From Gammaproteobacteria bacterium (GTDB taxonomy: Bacteria; Pseudomonadota; Gammaproteobacteria; Pseudomonadales; Azotimanducaceae), in assembly GCA_026706665.1 (NCBI GenBank), contig JAPOYI010000235.1, positions 1-38,760 on the forward strand: DNA of 38,760 nt. The letters run 5' to 3'. The notes beneath the pieces were generated by a model. It was not told the DNA's origin. It made no database searches and was given only the letters and a program-made list of their open reading frames with translations. A program made the translations under genes and the position numbers. Of the stretch, positions 1 through 7,385 are shown piece after piece (position 1 is the first letter of the stretch; each line of letters opens with the position of its first letter).

Positions 1-363
1 CGGCACTTCCTTACGCGTCAGCGGTCGGGGAACATTCCCCGGCTGAGGGCTCCTACGCAAGACGATTGCGCTTCAAGGTAGGAAGATCAACGGTCCTTGC
101 ATGGAAGTACGCCTCCGGCGACGGGGGAAACGCCGGCACTTCCTTACGCGTCAGCGGTCGGGGAACATTCCCCGGCTGAGGGCTCCTACGCAAGACGATT
201 GCGCTTCAAGGTAGGAAGATCAACGGTCCTTGCATGGAAGTACGCCTCCGGCGACGGGGGAAACGCCGGCACTTCCTTACGCGTCAGCGGTCGGGGAACA
301 TTCCCCGGCTGAGGGCTCCTACGCAAGACGATTGCGCTTCAAGGTAGGAAGATCAACGGTCCT
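1..363. repeat. Perfect 133-bp tandem repeat, about 2.7 copies, truncated by the window edge
   Basis: Units begin at 1, 134 and 267 and are identical as far as they can be compared. The third copy diverges after position 363. The array may continue to the left of base 1. Each unit contains CGGGGAA-CA-TTCCCCG-like dyad symmetry (copy 1 around 37-53) and a second short inverted repeat, CCGGCG/CGCCGG, separated by 10 bases. Bases 319-363 of copy 3 are also the last 14 codons and stop of the exporter gene on the minus strand, so the unit includes a duplicated gene 3' end plus about 90 bp of flanking sequence. Open frames inside the array exist only because the unit repeats; I do not regard them as genes. 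The unit is too long, and its copies too contiguous, for a CRISPR. Confidence 0.95.
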
Positions 364-2385
364 GGCGGCACGCTCTACCACACGGGCGTCGTGCGTGACG
401 GCGATGATCGTGGCGTCGAGATCCATCAGGTTGGTCAACACCTGTTGCTGCAGATCGTCGTTGAGGTGGGCCGTTCCTTCGTCGAGCAGGAGCAGCCGGG
501 GTTGTCGATAGATGGCCCGCGCGATCATGACCCTTTGGCGCTGACCGCCTGACAGCGTCGATCCCATGTGACCGACCAGGGTCAAATACTGCATCGGCAT
601 GCGCGCAATGTCGTCGTGTATGCATGCCATGCGCGCGGCCCACTCGACGCGCTTGATGTCGGGACTGTCGGTGTCTACGGCGATATTCTCGACAAGAGAA
701 CCGGAGAACAGGTCGTCGTCCTGCATCACGACGCCCAATTGCTGCCGGTAGTAAACGGTGTCCAACCGCGCCAAATCAACTCCGTCGATGAGTATCTGGC
801 CGTCAGAGGGCGCGAGCAGCCTGCACAGCAGCTTGATGAGAGTCGACTTGCCGCCGCCCGACCCGCCTTCAATGGCGACGAACTCTCCCGGCGACACTGC
901 GAGATCCAGCTTGTCGAACACGGTGCCTTCCTCATCGTTGTACGAGAAAGACAGGAACCGGATCTCGACCCTGCCTTCCAGGTCGTGACGAATCCCTCGA
1001 TTTTCCGCAGGTATTTCGCGGGATTCGAGGCCGATGTCGGCGATGCGTTCCTGGTGCAACCGCAACATCCGTAATCCCACCAACGACGCGATCAGGGAGT
1101 GGGTTCTTCCGGAGAACATGGCCCCGTAGGACAGGAATGCGAACAGCATGCCCAACGTGAATTCGCCGCCGATGACCTTTTGCGCGCCGAGCAGGAGGAT
1201 GATGACGCTCTCCGCGCCGCCGATCAGCGCGCCCACCAGTCCGACGTGTGCGCCGAAGCGGCCGAGTCGGGCGCTGGCGTTGATCGACTCGACGTAACGC
1301 TCTCCCCACGCACCTTCCCGCAGAGCCTCCGCACCGAGCAGCTTGATGGCGCGATGCCGCTCGATGTTCTCGATGAAGCTCGAGTTTTCGAGCGCGCCCG
1401 CGGCGATGGACTCGTGCGTCAGGTTGCGAAGCGGCCGATACGTCGCGGCGTTGAGCACGGCGAAGGCGGCGACGAACGCGCAGATCGCAACGGTCATTTG
1501 CCACGAATAGCTCAGAAGTATGCCCAGCGCGCCGGCAGCCAGCAGTACGTCCACCAGCATCGAAAAGGCCCCCGTCATGAGAAACTGCCTGATCGGCGCG
1601 GTCGATCCAAACCTCGACAGGACGTCTCCCGTGTGCCGAGCCGAGAACCACGCGTCCGGAAGCCGCATCATGTGGTGGGCCAGGCCGCTCACCATGCGGA
1701 AGGCCGATGAATTGCCGACGTACAGCACGAGGAGCGACCTGACATATGACGTGATCGCGGAAACCGCGAGAACAAGACCGAATCCCACGGCCAGGACGAT
1801 TACGATACTCATGTCTCCTTGGCGAATTCCCTGATCCACCGTGAACTGCGTATTGAGCGGCATGAGCAGGGCGAATGCCTGCAATATGAGCGTCATTGCG
1901 AATACAACACCGAGCTGTCGGCCGAGACCGCGAAACACGGAGAGAACAGACGAGAGCTTGACGGTCCCGGGTTCCTTCTTTGGTTCGAAGGAAGGCGTAG
2001 GGGCAAGTTCCAGAGCCACGCCGGTGAAGCGGCGGCTCACTTCTTTCAGGGGAAGACGGCGGAGGCCGAAAGCCGGGTCGATGATGGTCGCCCCTTTCCG
2101 GTGCGTCGACTTGAGGACCACGAAATGGTCGAGGTCCCAATGCAGGATGGCGGGCGTCCGAAGCTGAGGCAACTCTTCGAGATCGACTCTCACGGCGCGC
2201 GATCCGAGTCCGATCTCCTCGGCGCAGTCCCGCATGCGGTGGAGCGTCATGCCGCGCTCCGAGAGTCGAAACTTCGCCCGGTATTCCCGCAATGTCGCCT
2301 TGTAGCCGTGCCAGGCCGCCACCATGGCGAGACATGCCAGTCCGCACTCGGCCCGGTCGGCTTGCAGGATGACGGTCAGCCGCAC
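319..2385 (-). CDS. C39-peptidase-containing ABC exporter (PCAT; bacteriocin/double-glycine peptide type)
   Basis: This predicted inner-membrane exporter cleaves double-glycine leaders and pumps the mature peptide out, using ATP. Length is 688 residues from a GTG start. Residues 1-130 form a C39 peptidase domain with Gln8, Cys14 (in AECGLACLAMV), His87 (DLDHFVVL) and Asp103 (IIDPAFG), the expected catalytic set. A hydrophobic transmembrane region covers roughly 160-440. The nucleotide-binding domain has Walker A GGSGGGKST (about 505-513), the signature LSGGQRQRV (about 610), a Walker B ending in LLLLDEGTAHLND (about 633) and an H-loop His (VTHD, about 663). The start is the first one in frame after the stop of the upstream hlyD remnant, 36 bases away, so co-transcription is likely. 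The last 14 residues after the H-loop come from the tandem repeat, so the original C-terminus may have been replaced. The substrate is probably the 57-residue GG-leader peptide at 4672-4845. Confidence 0.93.
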   Translation of the reverse strand: MRLTVILQADRAECGLACLAMVAAWHGYKATLREYRAKFRLSERGMTLHRMRDCAEEIGLGSRAVRVDLEELPQLRTPAILHWDLDHFVVLKSTHRKGATIIDPAFGLRRLPLKEVSRRFTGVALELAPTPSFEPKKEPGTVKLSSVLSVFRGLGRQLGVVFAMTLILQAFALLMPLNTQFTVDQGIRQGDMSIVIVLAVGFGLVLAVSAITSYVRSLLVLYVGNSSAFRMVSGLAHHMMRLPDAWFSARHTGDVLSRFGSTAPIRQFLMTGAFSMLVDVLLAAGALGILLSYSWQMTVAICAFVAAFAVLNAATYRPLRNLTHESIAAGALENSSFIENIERHRAIKLLGAEALREGAWGERYVESINASARLGRFGAHVGLVGALIGGAESVIILLLGAQKVIGGEFTLGMLFAFLSYGAMFSGRTHSLIASLVGLRMLRLHQERIADIGLESREIPAENRGIRHDLEGRVEIRFLSFSYNDEEGTVFDKLDLAVSPGEFVAIEGGSGGGKSTLIKLLCRLLAPSDGQILIDGVDLARLDTVYYRQQLGVVMQDDDLFSGSLVENIAVDTDSPDIKRVEWAARMACIHDDIARMPMQYLTLVGHMGSTLSGGQRQRVMIARAIYRQPRLLLLDEGTAHLNDDLQQQVLTNLMDLDATIIAVTHDARVVERAARTVDLPTLKRNRLA

Positions 2386-2421
2386 CTCGAATGGAACCTT
2401 GCGTCCGGGTCGACGCCGCCG

Positions 2422-3218
2422 TCAAAGACGCCCGACCGTGCCTCGGATGGGTTCCAGCACCCAATCCACGAGCGTCCGTCGATCGCGCACGAGATCGGCC
2501 GTCACCGTCATTCCCGGACGCAGCGCGCCGACATGTTCGGGCGCAGACGGTCCTCCATTTCCGCAAGCGACGAGCGCAAGCGCTCCGCCTCGCCCTTCTT
2601 CTCCGATAGCGGCAGTTCTTTCGACCGTACATCGTCCAGCAGGAGCATGAGGTCCGTCGATGACAGGGCGCCAGCCTCTTGCAGGCGGCGGGCGTCGTCG
2701 TGCCTGCGTTTCGCGATCGCCAGGCGGGACGCGTGCAGGTCGATCTCCTTATTCGCTCTGGCAAGGTCGCTTCGCAGGAAGTCGCGCTCGCGGGCGAGGC
2801 GCCTCCGGTCGTTTTGGTAGCGGGAGCCGATCAGGCGAAGTTCGGTTTCCAGGGCGTCGCGCCGACCTTCCATTTCGTCAACGAGCTTCTCTTCGACCGT
2901 AAGCCTGTCGCCGAGGCCGTCGGGGGGAACCAGTTCAAAAAGGACATCCCCCGTCTTCACCTTGGTGCCCGCGTCCACCATGCGGTTGCGCACCACCGCG
3001 AAAAATCGCGCCGTCACTCGCGCCCAGCCGCCTACGGGCGCCAGATGCCCGCGCGCCTGTTCCTTGCTCGCGAACTCGAACGAGACGGCGAATCCGATCA
3101 GTGCGGTCGAGACGATACCGACGAGCAGCAAAAGCAGGTAGCCGGAAACCGGTCTGGAGAGGATTGGGGGTTGCCACGGCGCAGTCTGGAAGCGCCCGAC
3201 GACCTCCTCCCGGAACAG
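2422..3218 (-). pseudogene. HlyD/CvaA-type membrane fusion protein, internally deleted and frameshifted
   Basis: The N-terminal part reads LFREEVVGRFQTAPW followed by a membrane segment (LLLLLVGIVSTALIGFAV), a lipoyl-like stretch and a coiled-coil hairpin with two arms around EAGALSSTDL. This is the usual layout of periplasmic adaptors that pair with C39 exporters. The open frame then stops at 2508-2510. A different frame directly downstream encodes a typical adaptor C-terminus (LRPGMTVTADLVRDRRTL, then WVLEPI) ending at 2422. The second lipoyl half and beta-barrel, about 150 residues in normal family members, are absent, so this is a deletion whose junction also changes frame. No ATG or GTG precedes the homologous start near 3218; the only options are CTG there or TTG at 3131. 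I call it a pseudogene. A functional short adaptor is unlikely but not excluded. Confidence 0.8.
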
Positions 3219-3228
3219 CGCACCGTCG

Positions 3229-4488
3229 TCACCCGTTTCCGCGAGGCGCTTCTCCGGTCGCGTGGTTCGGCTTCCGGGGCACGAAAAACACCCTCAACGG
3301 ATTGAGTTGCCAGCCGAAAGCGCGGAACTGGAGCAGAGTATTCATGCGGATGGAAATCTGGCTGTACCCCCATTCCAGCCCCGGGAACAGGACCGATTCG
3401 TCGATCACGCATTCTCCCACCAAGGACGGGTGATCGCCGAAGGAGAAAACCAGTTCGTCGCCGTTCGCTTCAAGGAAGGTGGATGAGCAATTCGTGTGGG
3501 TTGCACCGGTGTCGAACATGGCGGGAAATCGCGTGCCGTCGCGCGCTGGTATCGAGACGTGAATGCCCAGGGAACCCGTCAGCCACGCCTCGTGCGGCTC
3601 TTCCCCGTTCACGCATGGCCCCAGCGCGCCGAGGTAGAGGCGCTGTTCGTCCCAGGCGAAACAGACCGCGTCGTGCCGTAGCAGGATGTTCATGCCGACA
3701 AGGGACGCGTAAGGAAACGGATGATCCCAGGACTTTTGGTTTGTGTCATCCACATCGAATCTGACTTGTCGATGCAGGGTTCTGCCAATCTGCAGTTCGT
3801 CCAGTTTGGCGATAGTCAGCGAGAAAACGGCGTGTATGCCGGTTGCCCGTTGGCGCATGTCCGAAAGCTCCAGGTCCGCGCGCCGCGCCGCCTCTTCAAG
3901 CGGCATGATGAGGATGCTGCCCGACGAGCCCGTGTCGACAATTGGCCGCTGCGGCGTATCGCTGGCGAGAACATCTATTGTGGGTATGAAGCCGCCGCCC
4001 TGCCGCTCGTACCAAGTCAGCGGCAACGCTTCCGGAACGACCGTTGCCGGGATGGGGGCTTCGTTAAGTTGGCTTCTTTGGCGTGCCGCCCATGCGGGAC
4101 AGGTATCGCGCAGTCCATTTGTCACTACTCGATCATACATCTTGCGCCGTTCCGCCTTCGTCATGCGTTCTTTGTCCTCCGGGTCTCTCCTGAGGCGCGG
4201 ACAGAAGGTCTCCAGATTCGCTGGCTCGGCACGGGGCTTGCCAATGATCTGCCCGAGCACGCCAATGTCCGGGCACCGCTCAAGGAAGAAGCAGTCAATG
4301 AACGCCCCGGAGTCGAGTTCATTCCGCCCCGGGTGTCGGAAGAACGCCATGTAGTGGTCCCACGCGGCTTCGAAGTCGCCGCCTCGATAGGTCGCGACTA
4401 CATGTCGAAGCAGGTCTTCGGGCGTCGGCGGAGACGCCTGTTCGGCGTTGACTACAACGCCGAACAGGCATAAAGCCAAGCATCGCAC
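3229..4488 (-). CDS. Exported retropepsin-like aspartic protease with two DTG motifs
   Basis: From the chosen GTG start the protein is 419 residues. It begins with a short hydrophobic segment (MRCLALCLFGVVVNAEQA) that looks like a signal peptide. An alpha-helical region (about 20-150) containing several cysteines follows, then two retropepsin-like halves: VDTGSSGS with Asp185 and FDTGATHT with Asp326. Each half has a hydrophobic-hydrophobic-Gly stretch behind it, such as LVGMNILLRHD. Bacterial clan AA proteases usually carry one DTG and dimerise; two in one chain suggest a self-contained pseudo-dimer. The open frame extends upstream to a GTG at 4665, but that part reads across a Gly/Asn-rich coding stretch in another frame, lacks a ribosome binding site and would bury the signal peptide. 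The gene lies between the GG-leader precursor and the adaptor/exporter genes on the same strand. A role in peptide maturation or resistance is inference from position only. Confidence 0.75.
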   Translation of the reverse strand: MRCLALCLFGVVVNAEQASPPTPEDLLRHVVATYRGGDFEAAWDHYMAFFRHPGRNELDSGAFIDCFFLERCPDIGVLGQIIGKPRAEPANLETFCPRLRRDPEDKERMTKAERRKMYDRVVTNGLRDTCPAWAARQRSQLNEAPIPATVVPEALPLTWYERQGGGFIPTIDVLASDTPQRPIVDTGSSGSILIMPLEEAARRADLELSDMRQRATGIHAVFSLTIAKLDELQIGRTLHRQVRFDVDDTNQKSWDHPFPYASLVGMNILLRHDAVCFAWDEQRLYLGALGPCVNGEEPHEAWLTGSLGIHVSIPARDGTRFPAMFDTGATHTNCSSTFLEANGDELVFSFGDHPSLVGECVIDESVLFPGLEWGYSQISIRMNTLLQFRAFGWQLNPLRVFFVPRKPNHATGEAPRGNG

Positions 4489-4525
4489 CGTTCGAACGAC
4501 GCTTAGCGTTCGGATGGACCCGGGG

Positions 4526-4680
4526 CTAATCGTCGTCCCCCCCGCGGTCGTTTCCGCCCCCGCGGTTGTTCTCGTCGCGGGATTCGCTTCCCGAGTCGTT
4601 ATTGGGAGTGTTGTGGCCCCTATTGCATGAGGCTGTTGGGCCCTGTGCAGTGATGGATCCTTCACCTAGGTCTATGGAGA
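4526..4680 (-). other. Gly/Asn/Asp-rich open stretch in the -1 frame after the GG-leader peptide gene
   Basis: On the minus strand, in the frame one base behind the 57-residue peptide, an open stretch continues past the peptide stop (4672-4674) to a TAG at 4526-4528. Its end encodes HNTPNNDSGSESRDENN and then RGGGNDRGGDDD, a composition like the peptide core (Gly, Asn, Arg, Asp). Third codon positions in this terminal part are rich in G and C, as in real genes here. It has no ATG, GTG or TTG start of its own. It could be a C-terminal extension lost by frameshift, the remnant of a second precursor, or chance. Confidence 0.4.
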
Positions 4681-4845
4681 CGCTGCCACTCCTGTATTCC
4701 CACTCTGGCGATTCTGGCCACCGTTGTTGGAACCACGGTTCCCGCGACCGCGGCCAGGGTTTCCGTTCAAAGATGTCGGGTCGTCCTGTCCGTTCATGTC
4801 GCCGCCGGATACAGCGAGCATTTCATCATTCGCAAGAAGTCTCAT
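4672..4845 (-). CDS. Double-glycine leader peptide precursor (bacteriocin-like), 57 aa
   Basis: The product starts MRLLANDEMLAVSGG, a textbook double-glycine leader: the hydrophobic/acidic pattern DEMLAVSGG is recognised and cut after GG by C39 peptidases. The predicted core, DMNGQDDPTSLNGNPG onward, is 42 residues, rich in Gly, Asn, Arg and Ser. It has no Cys, which argues against lanthionine or disulfide chemistry, and no Trp or long hydrophobic run. The start at 4845 is fixed by a strong ribosome binding site (AGGAGAG, about 7 bases upstream); an ATG further upstream at 4920 lacks this and would put 25 unrelated residues before the leader. A C39 exporter lies downstream on the same strand, with the aspartic protease and broken adaptor between them. 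The core resembles no bacteriocin I recognise, so antimicrobial activity is inferred from leader and context, not from the core. Confidence 0.82.
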   Translation of the reverse strand: MRLLANDEMLAVSGGDMNGQDDPTSLNGNPGRGRGNRGSNNGGQNRQSGNTGVAASP

Positions 4846-4944
4846 TATTGACTCTCCTGCTGTCGGTTGTTTTTGTGGGCAGGCAAATTGCCAGCCTCCC
4901 CCGTTATGCGCCTCGAACAAGGCCTGTTCGCGACGCCGACAAAA

Positions 4945-4975
4945 ATCATGAAGAAAAAAAGCTCGCCCGTGTCAA
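4945..4975 (-). promoter_or_regulatory. Candidate sigma-70-type promoter for the GG-leader peptide
   Basis: A perfect TTGACA lies on the minus strand at 4975-4970. A CATGAT box (4 of 6 matches to TATAAT) follows at 4950-4945 with a 19-base spacer, and a weaker TTCATG follows at 17 bases. The segment is A/T-rich in an otherwise G/C-rich region and lies about 100 bases upstream of the peptide start. The spacer is longer than ideal, so the -10 assignment is uncertain. Confidence 0.45.
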
Positions 4976-5050
4976 GTCTTTTTTTCGTGTTTTTGCCAAC
5001 CGGCCCTCCCGTGGTAGCGTTACTGCGCTTCCTGTCAGATCGAGGTATCC

Positions 5051-6178
5051 ATGCAGCTCTTCCGCTCCCTTGTCTGCGTGCTCGGCGGCGCACTCCTTCC
5101 CGGCTGTGCGGGCACCCCACGCGACCTTCCGGGCGCATGTGATGGATGGAGTACTTTCGAATTCTTCGAGAATGCCACAGTCGCGGTTGTAGAAGTGTGT
5201 CTGGCCGCCGGTGCCGATACAAATGCACGCGGGGAGTGGCGCATGACGCCGCTGATGTTGGCTGCGGCAAGCGATCCCGATATCACCCGGGCACTGCTCG
5301 ACGCCGGTGCCGACCCGACCCTGCTGGACGAACGCGGCAACTCGCCCCTGCTCTTCGCCCTCGCGCATGGTGTCACGGGTGCCGACCACGTGGCGGCGCT
5401 ATTGGAAGCCGGCGTCGACCCGAACGCGTCAAACCGGGACGGCCACACCGCGCTGCATGCAGCCATCACGTCTGAGGCCGTTACGACCAGGCCCGCATAC
5501 CTTGACGTGCTGCTGGCGGCAGGCGCCGATCCGAATGCCCCGGACAAGTACGGCGAAACGCCGCTGCACCGCGCGCTCTACTTTCCGGCTTCGAGGCGGC
5601 CGTTCGTGGCGGCGCTGCTCGACGCCGGGACCGAGTTGGAGGCGACTACGATCATGGGCAACACGCCCTTGCATTTCGCCGCCATGGGACCCGATCCGGA
5701 AACCGTGGACATGCTGCTGGCTGTTGGTGCGGACGCTACGGCGCGGAATAATCACGGCGTGACGCCCCTGCATCGCGCCGCCTATGCGCAACCCGCTCCG
5801 GTGATAGCCACGCTTCTCGGCGCGAGTGCCGAAGTCAACGCCACCGACCGGTTCGCCGCAACGCCGCTGCACAACGCGGCGGTCTGGAACCCCGATGAGA
5901 AAGCTATCGTCGCGCTGCTTGACGCCGGCGCCGATCCGATGGCGAAAGACAGCGCCGGTTCCACTCCTCTACATCACGCGGCCTATTGGAACCGGAACCC
6001 GCTCGTCGTCGAAATGTTGCTCCAGGCCGGAGGGGACCCTCTGACGCACAACGGGTTCAACGAAACGCCGTTGCGTCTGGCCGAAAGACGGGTCCAGCCG
6101 GTTCAGGATATCATCGACTTGTTGCTTGGCGCTGGCGCGGGTCCCGAGGCGACGAACGAGGCGGGCGGCCCGCCCTGA
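5051..6178 (+). CDS. Ankyrin-repeat lipoprotein
   Basis: This 375-residue protein begins MQLFRSLVCVLGGALLPGCAG, a signal sequence ending in a lipobox (LLPGC), so it is probably lipid-anchored at Cys19 and faces the periplasm. The rest is about nine to ten ankyrin repeats of roughly 33 residues, with the recurring pattern GxTPLHxAA...LLxAGADPNA (for example GETPLHRALY and GSTPLHHAAY). Ankyrin arrays bind other proteins; the partner cannot be told from sequence. The start has a GAGG five bases upstream. The gene is divergent from the GG-leader peptide, with about 205 bp between start codons that must hold both promoters. Its position would suit a role in the peptide locus such as protecting the producer, but it may be unrelated. 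It ends 128 bp from the convergent Nudix gene; I see no clear terminator in that gap. Confidence 0.85.
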   Translation: MQLFRSLVCVLGGALLPGCAGTPRDLPGACDGWSTFEFFENATVAVVEVCLAAGADTNARGEWRMTPLMLAAASDPDITRALLDAGADPTLLDERGNSPLLFALAHGVTGADHVAALLEAGVDPNASNRDGHTALHAAITSEAVTTRPAYLDVLLAAGADPNAPDKYGETPLHRALYFPASRRPFVAALLDAGTELEATTIMGNTPLHFAAMGPDPETVDMLLAVGADATARNNHGVTPLHRAAYAQPAPVIATLLGASAEVNATDRFAATPLHNAAVWNPDEKAIVALLDAGADPMAKDSAGSTPLHHAAYWNRNPLVVEMLLQAGGDPLTHNGFNETPLRLAERRVQPVQDIIDLLLGAGAGPEATNEAGGPP

Positions 6179-6726: not shown

Positions 6727-7125
6727 TCAGTCTGCGGGTACTTGTATCCAGGCAAGCCCGTCAACGAACTCGAAGTGCTGATCTGACGAAATGAGATCGG
6801 TACCCGTCTCCATGGCGTGCGCAGCGATCCAGATGTCATTGGATGGAATGGGGCGTCCCTTTGCCCGCAGTGCGGTCGCGATTCGGGCATGGCGGTCGGC
6901 GGTCGTCAGGTTCATGGATGGAGTTGCGACGCGTGGATTGTCGAGGAAGTCCCGAAGCTCGTCGAGGTTCTCTTCCAGGCGCGTTCCATATCGAAAGCCG
7001 TAGAGCAGTTCGCCAATGACAACAAAGGGGAGAACAACCTGCTCCGATGCACGCACAATCTCGGCGACGCGGGGATGGCCCCGCTTGAGATTCGAGTAGG
7101 CGTTGGAGTCCAGGAGAATCCTCAT
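6727..7125 (-). CDS. vapC: VapC-like PIN-domain ribonuclease toxin
   Basis: The protein is 132 residues from the ATG at 7125. PIN-domain acidic residues are visible: Asp6 in LLDSNAYS, Glu39 in IGELLYG, Asp97 in PSNDIWIAAHA and Asp115 in ISSDQHF. These coordinate the metal in VapC-type RNases, which cut tRNA or rRNA when freed from their antitoxin. The ATG overlaps the antitoxin stop as ATGA, the usual translational coupling in such pairs; a GTG two codons earlier is also possible. The order is antitoxin, toxin, then Nudix gene, all on the minus strand. Confidence 0.9.
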   Translation of the reverse strand: MRILLDSNAYSNLKRGHPRVAEIVRASEQVVLPFVVIGELLYGFRYGTRLEENLDELRDFLDNPRVATPSMNLTTADRHARIATALRAKGRPIPSNDIWIAAHAMETGTDLISSDQHFEFVDGLAWIQVPAD

Positions 7126-7385
7126 CTCCACATGCCGCGATCAATTTGCGAAAGGCCCTGGATGGCGTCATCCATCTCGAGCGCTTCCTCATCTGTCCAG
7201 GTGCCGATCAAGTGATCCAGCGAAGATCCAACAATGTCCGTTCCCGGCTTTCCGGGTGCAAGGCCTGCTCCACGGCGGAGAAGCCTCAATACCGCTCGAT
7301 TCAAGGAGATACCCTCCTGGTCCGCCAATTGTCGGATCCGCCTCGCCAGGTCATCGTCGAAACCGCGTATCGTTAGCTGGTTCAT
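7122..7385 (-). CDS. vapB: VapB/FitA-like antitoxin with ribbon-helix-helix start
   Basis: An 87-residue protein. Its N-terminus, MNQLTIRGFDDDLARRIRQL, followed by a helix with SLNRAVLRLLRR, has the beta-strand then two helices of ribbon-helix-helix DNA-binding antitoxins (FitA/VapB type). The C-terminal half (about 50-87) is acidic and would wrap the toxin. It stops within the start of the toxin gene. It probably represses its own promoter together with the toxin; a perfect 9-bp inverted repeat 38 bp upstream of its start is a good candidate operator. Confidence 0.85.
   Translation of the reverse strand: MNQLTIRGFDDDLARRIRQLADQEGISLNRAVLRLLRRGAGLAPGKPGTDIVGSSLDHLIGTWTDEEALEMDDAIQGLSQIDRGMWR

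Follow-up and report, generated by a model that had tools for sequence, protein, structure and literature searches.

Why should a gene for a secreted aspartic protease lie between a peptide precursor and the genes for its export? The question is raised by a locus in a 38,760-nucleotide stretch of DNA from a gammaproteobacterium of the family Azotimanducaceae, referred to below as the window, which is one whole contig (C252) of a 252-contig, 5.0-Mb genome. In the order of transcription, the minus strand of the window carries a precursor with a double-glycine (GG) leader, a secreted aspartic protease, a broken HlyD-type adaptor and an ATP-binding cassette (ABC) exporter with a C39 peptidase domain (Table 1). 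This is the order claimed in the original prediction, made from the letters of the window, which had listed precursor, protease with DTG motifs, adaptor remnant and C39 exporter as four genes in a row on one strand. We found that the genes form a real, conserved cassette, undescribed as far as the literature was searched, with a protease whose function we infer. Tentatively, and with confidence just short of an even balance, we read the locus as a class II microcin-like cassette in which a periplasmic two-lobed aspartic protease would fill the immunity slot.

We searched 206 genomes of the window's family with a protease profile (A1, of seven units) and with the exporter's first 362 residues; per genome, up to eight protease and up to nine exporter candidates were scored. 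Strong protease matches were obtained in ten of the 206 genomes, from four genera (G000, G002, G007, G008, G784, G786, G804, G929, G935 and G937), and five further genomes of the family gave weak single-lobe matches only. Within the window's genus the protease was found in four of the nine genomes searched, some of the others being incomplete. We counted 16 protease genes, with two pieces in G804 taken as one, and 12 of these lie in loci with an adaptor, an exporter or a clear remnant: the window, contig C200 of the same genome, G007, three loci of G786, G929, copies a and b of G935, G937:C28 (by contig overlap), G937:C248 and G784. The other four (G008, two in G002, and G804) are without export genes in the stretch examined. 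The protease homologues are found mostly beside export genes or their remnants, in line with the co-occurrence proposed in the original prediction.

The exporter search in the same genomes (E up to 1e-60) returned 80 matches. Besides the window's own there are nine with 60-65% identity and 70 with 33-43%. In the clade of ten that includes the window's exporter, the protease is on the same contig in eight cases; the ninth exporter (G937:C192) is joined to the protease contig G937:C28 by an exact contig overlap of 55 nt, and the tenth (G937:C64) is on a contig that ends inside the adaptor gene, its linkage not being judgeable. None of the 70 exporters at 33-43% identity shared a contig with a strong protease match, and since many of these contigs are short, a linkage past their ends would go unseen. 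Profile A1 matched no open reading frame (ORF) in 36 other exporter regions, some of them cut off at contig ends. Protease, GG precursor and C39 exporter form a conserved combination, which among the genomes searched is specific to one exporter clade. A general link between retropepsin-like proteases and C39 exporters was considered and rejected: PF13975 occurs in 49 of 58 relatives and, except for the window's, never within 20 kb of an exporter match, the next-nearest distances being about 22 and 26 kb (lists compared by eye); among these relatives PF13975 itself failed to detect the proteases of C200 and G007.

Samples of the order (390 genomes) and class (369 genomes) held no full-length protease of this family outside the window's family; weak single-lobe matches outside the genus were seen in three and five genomes, respectively. 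No exporter above 42% identity was found outside the family in the 390 genomes of the order sample. A plasmid search gave no match, and a scan of genome contigs returned the G007 locus alone.

The order precursor-protease-adaptor-exporter was found in the window, C200, G007, the three G786 loci, G929 and G935, as well as in G937 across a contig break. All four genes are open in contig C200 (7341 bases, L013), in the same order as in the window, with an adaptor of 438 and an exporter of 683 residues. In C200 and G929 at most about 120 nt separate neighbouring genes from precursor to adaptor. Minus-strand ORFs lie upstream of the C200 cassette (L013 137-550), one end resembling by eye the C-terminus of a tyrosine recombinase, and the cassette is possibly in a mobile context.

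A common leader, M-R-x-L-x3-E-x3-V-(S/A/T)-G-G, is seen in nine precursors whose loci also contain protease and export genes (in G937 via the contig overlap); two of these precursors have a GTG start. Since the precursors were picked by patterns demanding a GG end, only the other leader positions (L4, E8 and V12) count as independent support. With the strict leader pattern, all six frames of the window gave a single match, and 30 mononucleotide shuffles gave none. A loose GG pattern gave 8 matches in the window versus 210 over 30 shuffles (7 each), and a loose match alone is therefore at chance level. The precursor-like stretches of G937:C248 and G804 are without a clear GG leader. The cores that follow the leader differ: that of the window is Gly/Asn-rich, those of G007 and G786:C379 contain cysteine, and six of the nine consist of 32-60% proline (54% in C200). 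In an alignment test the cores failed to align with one another; they are of low complexity, their net charge runs from +1 to -15, and by eye no obvious membrane-active segment was seen. A 5' hairpin common to the upstream regions of the precursors is only suggestive; the alignment breaks down for G786, and a DNA search of 19 genomes with the window's upstream region recovered the window alone, not C200 or G007, the rest being at chance level. Just upstream of the G786:C135 precursor (L149 3698-3748), at the contig end, there is a long C run, probably an assembly artefact.

The window copy of the cassette is decaying, with a precursor that is probably frameshifted and an adaptor that is cut. 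By codon preference, with six of the window's long ORFs as training set, the favoured frame changes from that of the precursor to another at about 4710-4720, and as the latter frame is open to 4526, the precursor was probably once longer and is now frameshifted. From the end of the precursor ORF to the likely protease start there are 183 nt in the window, 12 nt in C200 and 3 nt in G007. By eye, the out-of-frame tail resembles precursor-like tails in L152 and L014, and a QDDP.SLDG-like segment is also found in the precursor-like stretches adjoining the proteases of G937:C248 and G804; when the tail was aligned locally with the G007 core, 350 of 1000 shuffles did as well, which is not a significant result. 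The adaptor frame of 207 residues (2508-3131) shares 41.5% identity, over 207 residues, with the intact adaptor of C200 and falls far below the curated cut-offs of HlyD models. Its last ~30 residues are in another frame, down to about 2420, with ~150 residues missing between the pieces; longer relatives are in L013 and L014.

The window's exporter matched PF03412 (111.7 bits), PF00664 (ABC_membrane) and PF00005 (ABC_tran) over cut-off, and its score with the NHLM bacteriocin exporter model TIGR03796 was 404.4 bits against a cut-off of 853.3. The motif ECGLAC, taken as the sign of the catalytic Cys of the C39 domain, is visible in seven of nine exporter N-termini, those of G786:C135 and G786:C46 having been read from an upstream start, with letters that stop short of the motif. 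Full-length exporters are encoded in the window, C200, G786:C379, G929 and G937. Those of G935, G786:C135 and G786:C46 run into the contig end, and that of G007 is shortened.

Two further arrangements of export genes were noticed among the relatives. In L078 (7356-7909) tandem GG-leader precursors, MRRLTDDEIRLVAGG and MRALSQEETNRVTGG, precede an HlyD/C39 pair with no protease of this family. Several relatives (L082-L091) have adjacent pairs of large exporter-like genes, about 26-31% identical to the window's exporter, which from their resemblance we take to be perhaps of the NHLM type.

Table 1. Features of the cassette and its surroundings in the window
Feature	Position	Strand	Basis
Precursor ORF: 15-residue double-glycine leader MRLLANDEMLAVSGG and 42-residue Gly/Asn-rich core	4672..4845	-	ORF and leader comparison
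Probably the former 3' part of the precursor gene, shifted out of frame	4526..4715	-	Frame switch in codon preference; tail likeness by eye
Secreted two-lobed aspartic protease (predicted), likely GTG start at 4488	3229..4488	-	Open frame 3229-4665, Pfam matches, model
Catalytic Asp codons of the protease	3934-3936 and 3511-3513	-	Two DTG motifs
HlyD-type adaptor, N-terminal part, broken	2508..3200	-	Listed ORF 2508-3131; no common start codon where the frame extends upstream
C-terminal remnant of the adaptor, different frame, ~150 preceding residues gone	2420..2525	-	Translation against longer copy
C39-peptidase ABC exporter, 688 residues, full length	319..2385	-	PF03412, ABC_membrane and ABC_tran over cut-off
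Region upstream of the precursor: TTGACA, T-rich spacer, inverted repeat	4846..4980	-	The C200 precursor has a similar upstream region
133-bp tandem repeat at the contig edge, reaching the exporter's last codons	1..363	.	Contains a dispersed genomic repeat

The window protease matched PF13975 (33.0 bits) and PF13650 (32.5 bits) over cut-off, in the first lobe only; among the 21 protease units, PF13650 matches 20 and PF13975 matches 18. Its score with the clan AA protease model TIGR02281 (18.6 bits) was far below the cut-off of 57.95. The N-terminus is hydrophobic, and N-termini across the family resemble signal peptides by eye. A structure predicted from 21 sequences, with a mean predicted local distance difference test score (pLDDT) of 84.3 and a predicted template modelling score (pTM) of 0.85, superseded a first model of pLDDT 59. 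Its best structural match was a two-lobed protein of B. fragilis (436 columns, template modelling score 0.63), followed by plasmepsins, renin and pepsins. From the model and these matches, the protease is predicted to be an enzyme of the pepsin/retropepsin kind, with two lobes in a single chain and a helical domain in front. The B. fragilis protein (PDB 9iy9, annotated as 'putative endopeptidase' and 'Exported protein') is also a weak sequence match in lobe 1 (E 9e-5); its identity to the protease is 13%. The proteases share DTG motifs and lobes with the clan AA families PF13650, PF13975 and TIGR02281, but differ from them in having both lobes in one chain, a cysteine-containing helical front domain and the linkage to a peptide exporter. 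The term 'retropepsin-like' of the original prediction is apt for the clan AA DTG motifs, as the Pfam matches and the predicted fold indicate, but not in the sense of a plain retropepsin, given two lobes in one chain.

In clear cases the protease is 410-774 residues long. In every full-length gene read other than that of C200, at least one unit has Asp in each of its two lobes, if DIG/DTG of G786:C379 is included. The C200 protease (766 residues) is a tandem of two whole units, with NSG, HTG, NTG and DTG in its four lobes, and lobe 1 of unit 2 is also NTG in the proteases of G935 (a and b) and G937. Three loci had suggested that the catalytic Asp pair is present only where export is broken; this was ruled out by G929, which has four open genes and Asp in all four lobes. 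PADLOC returned nothing for two proteins.

The pattern of damage bears on what the protease does. Production genes are damaged and the protease frame is whole in five loci. In the window the precursor and the adaptor are affected, the G007 exporter is without about 215 residues, G937:C248 has an adaptor cut short and no exporter, and copy b of G935 is missing the precursor relative to G937. In G784 no precursor was recognised, and only the fused ends of the adaptor and exporter are left beside a whole protease; the upstream flank matches G786:C46 at 88.7% over 5.3 kb, and the loss of production genes may be recent. The ratio of nonsynonymous to synonymous substitution rates (dN/dS) on the branch of this lone protease is about 0.16, by hand from three pairwise values without error bars. 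In G008 and G002 the protease stands alone, with no production gene within the 17-18 kb examined. The reverse, an exporter of the clade without the protease, was seen in none of the nine judgeable cases, though the C200 protease has lost motifs. Outside these counts we left G937:C64, with its contig ending in the adaptor, and G804, with protease pieces at two contig ends, one match having an internal stop. The adaptor piece of G937:C64 is complementary in extent to the cut adaptor of G937:C248.

The genes of the cassette also diverge to different extents. Pairwise identity across nine loci is 52-98% for the exporter, 35-98% for the adaptor and 23-79% for the protease, with one protease unit taken per locus and several exporter and adaptor sequences incomplete. 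Between G935 and G937 the exporter (322 residues compared) and the adaptor are each 98% identical and the leader agrees in 14 of 15 positions, whereas the protease is 67% (unit 1) to 70% (whole protein) identical and the cores are different. Copy b of the G935 protease contains a block of ~400 residues that is 98-100% identical to the G937 protease, with both ends divergent. It adjoins the same neighbour gene as its G937 counterpart, and the precursor-bearing 326 nt of G937 are missing there. This mosaic of identical central block and divergent ends suggests recombination, and the pattern is as expected if a lineage switches its peptide and retains the old protection. The G935 and G937 cassettes (L148, L151) sit after an apparent proton-pumping pyrophosphatase gene (by eye). 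For proteases of whole cassettes dN/dS is 0.3-0.4, and for their exporters about 0.1; for the lone proteases of G002 and G008 it is about 0.7-0.8, versus 0.07 for the adjacent aceE. Both DTG motifs are kept in these lone copies, and changes lie right beside them.

In class II microcin loci the immunity gene typically adjoins the precursor, as described in excerpts of PMC10233263. Microcin V loci (CvaC, Cvi, CvaB, CvaA) resemble the present cassette in the GG precursor, the gene in the adjoining slot, the HlyD adaptor and the C39-ABC exporter. They differ in that their slot encodes a small membrane immunity protein, whereas here it encodes a secreted two-lobed aspartic protease, and in that most cores here are proline-rich as given above. 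With the protease occupying the slot next to the precursor, and little room for a further gene in C200 and G929, the protease would be in the immunity slot. If so, the GG leader would have the precursor recognised, cleaved and exported by the C39-ABC exporter via the HlyD adaptor and presumably a TolC-type pore, while the protease would reach the periplasm by its own signal peptide. There it would bind and normally cut the matching core peptide on leak or re-entry, thereby protecting the producer and kin that keep the gene. Core and protease would diversify as matched pairs with the export genes staying conserved, and non-producing cells would retain the protease. Localisation, toxicity of the peptide, its cleavage and immunity are what we infer from sequence. 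The window copy, its precursor and adaptor being broken, could at most protect.

The original prediction had considered that the protease could either trim the peptide after export or destroy it to protect the producer. We tentatively prefer protection over trimming because the protease is retained where production is damaged or absent. A maturation enzyme, which after leader removal by the C39 peptidase would trim the core in the periplasm or outside into its active form, is the strongest alternative, and one we consider unlikely. Operon pairing and the joint divergence of core and protease would fit a dedicated processing enzyme equally well, and the catalytic Asp pair is kept in nearly every copy. 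However, such an enzyme would be useless after loss of the precursor or of export, yet its frame is whole in the five damaged loci and it is found alone in two more. In C200, moreover, all four genes are open, yet three of the four catalytic Asp are lost. Export of the HlyD/TolC type is thought to bypass the periplasm, which also speaks against trimming there. Immunity by a periplasmic protease is thus the best reading, explaining linkage, direction of damage, lone copies and paired divergence, whereas maturation explains linkage and divergence only.

Would the protease need to cut at all? A pseudoprotease acting as a binder or chaperone, which holds the peptide for immunity or delivery, would suit C200, with one catalytic Asp in four lobes, as well as the NTG in unit 2 of both G935 proteins and of G937, and doubled units do accompany several proline-rich cores. 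We regard it as improbable as a general explanation, since all other full-length genes read keep Asp in both lobes of at least one unit. A signal or surface peptide regulated or recycled by the protease, with no toxicity, is still harder to credit: the low-complexity cores, with the charges given above and no obvious membrane-active segment, would suit it, but changes beside the active site of lone proteases are more easily explained by conflict, the genes of the cassette are not interspersed with any for a regulator or receptor, and microcins too are mostly neutral or anionic according to excerpts of PMC10233263.

Several points weigh against protease-based immunity. The protease is unlike the known class II microcin immunity proteins, which excerpts of PMC10233263 describe as having 51-216 residues and being usually located in the inner membrane. 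Very proline-rich cores are unusual for microcins and as substrates. The doubled protease is present in four of six loci with a proline-rich core and in none of the other three, which have single proteases; this association is a weak trend with data points that are not independent. Judging from its motifs, the C200 protease, in one of the few cassettes with all genes open, may not cut at all, because three of its four catalytic Asp are lost; binding may suffice in some copies, as C200 suggests. The two protease-only loci (G008 and G002) have no trace of former production genes, and the high dN/dS of lone copies also fits relaxed selection. Production genes make up about two thirds of the cassette, and random damage would spare the protease in five of five loci with a probability of about 0.13 and in seven of seven with about 0.05, so the damage pattern is support, not proof. 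Loci with a precursor or exporter and no protease are visible through the exporter search only.

Self-protection by a microcin-cleaving peptidase is known for microcin C, according to excerpts of PMC10233263. The likeness lies in self-protection by a peptidase, and the difference in that microcin C is a class I microcin. Its peptidase MccF belongs to the cytoplasm and to the serine peptidases, unlike the periplasmic aspartic protease proposed here. Among the top-ranked results (titles and starts of abstracts) of the open full-text literature, which leaves subscription papers and preprints mostly uncovered, none connected clan AA proteases to C39 exporters. By term search, aspartic proteases are not mentioned in a review of leader-removing proteases (PMC10885120) or in a survey of graspetides (PMC8939145). 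The claim of an undescribed system therefore holds as far as no description of such a locus was met in the top-ranked open literature, but the layout of the microcin V type was already known.

Around the cassette, the first 363 bases of the window are a perfect 133-bp tandem repeat, probably an assembly loop outside the peptide system. The genome has 70 pieces matching this repeat, the window's own counted and several at contig ends, which look like copies of a dispersed repeat some 93 bp long. A gene for an ankyrin-repeat protein (5051-6178), with an N-terminus that by eye is lipoprotein-like, is divergent from the precursor gene. Further on (6727-7385) lies a toxin-antitoxin pair of the FitAB/VapBC kind, in which a PIN-domain gene overlaps one for a FitA-like ribbon-helix-helix protein.

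Excerpts of PMC10233263 state that microcin immunity genes are at present not locatable by conserved sequence features. A recognisable enzyme family in the immunity slot makes the immunity question testable here, and it gives a handle for finding unusual proline-rich exported peptides. A more doubtful, though possible, extension is a new principle of immunity, in which hypervariable cores, several of them poly-proline, and periplasmic pepsin-like proteases would co-evolve by recombination and unit doubling, lone proteases would be kept as resistance genes by non-producers, and one conserved type of exporter would serve all. If protease-based immunity is true, it would provide a function for one kind of two-lobed bacterial aspartic protease, and the matched and lone copies would form a natural series for an enzyme that tracks a fast-changing substrate.

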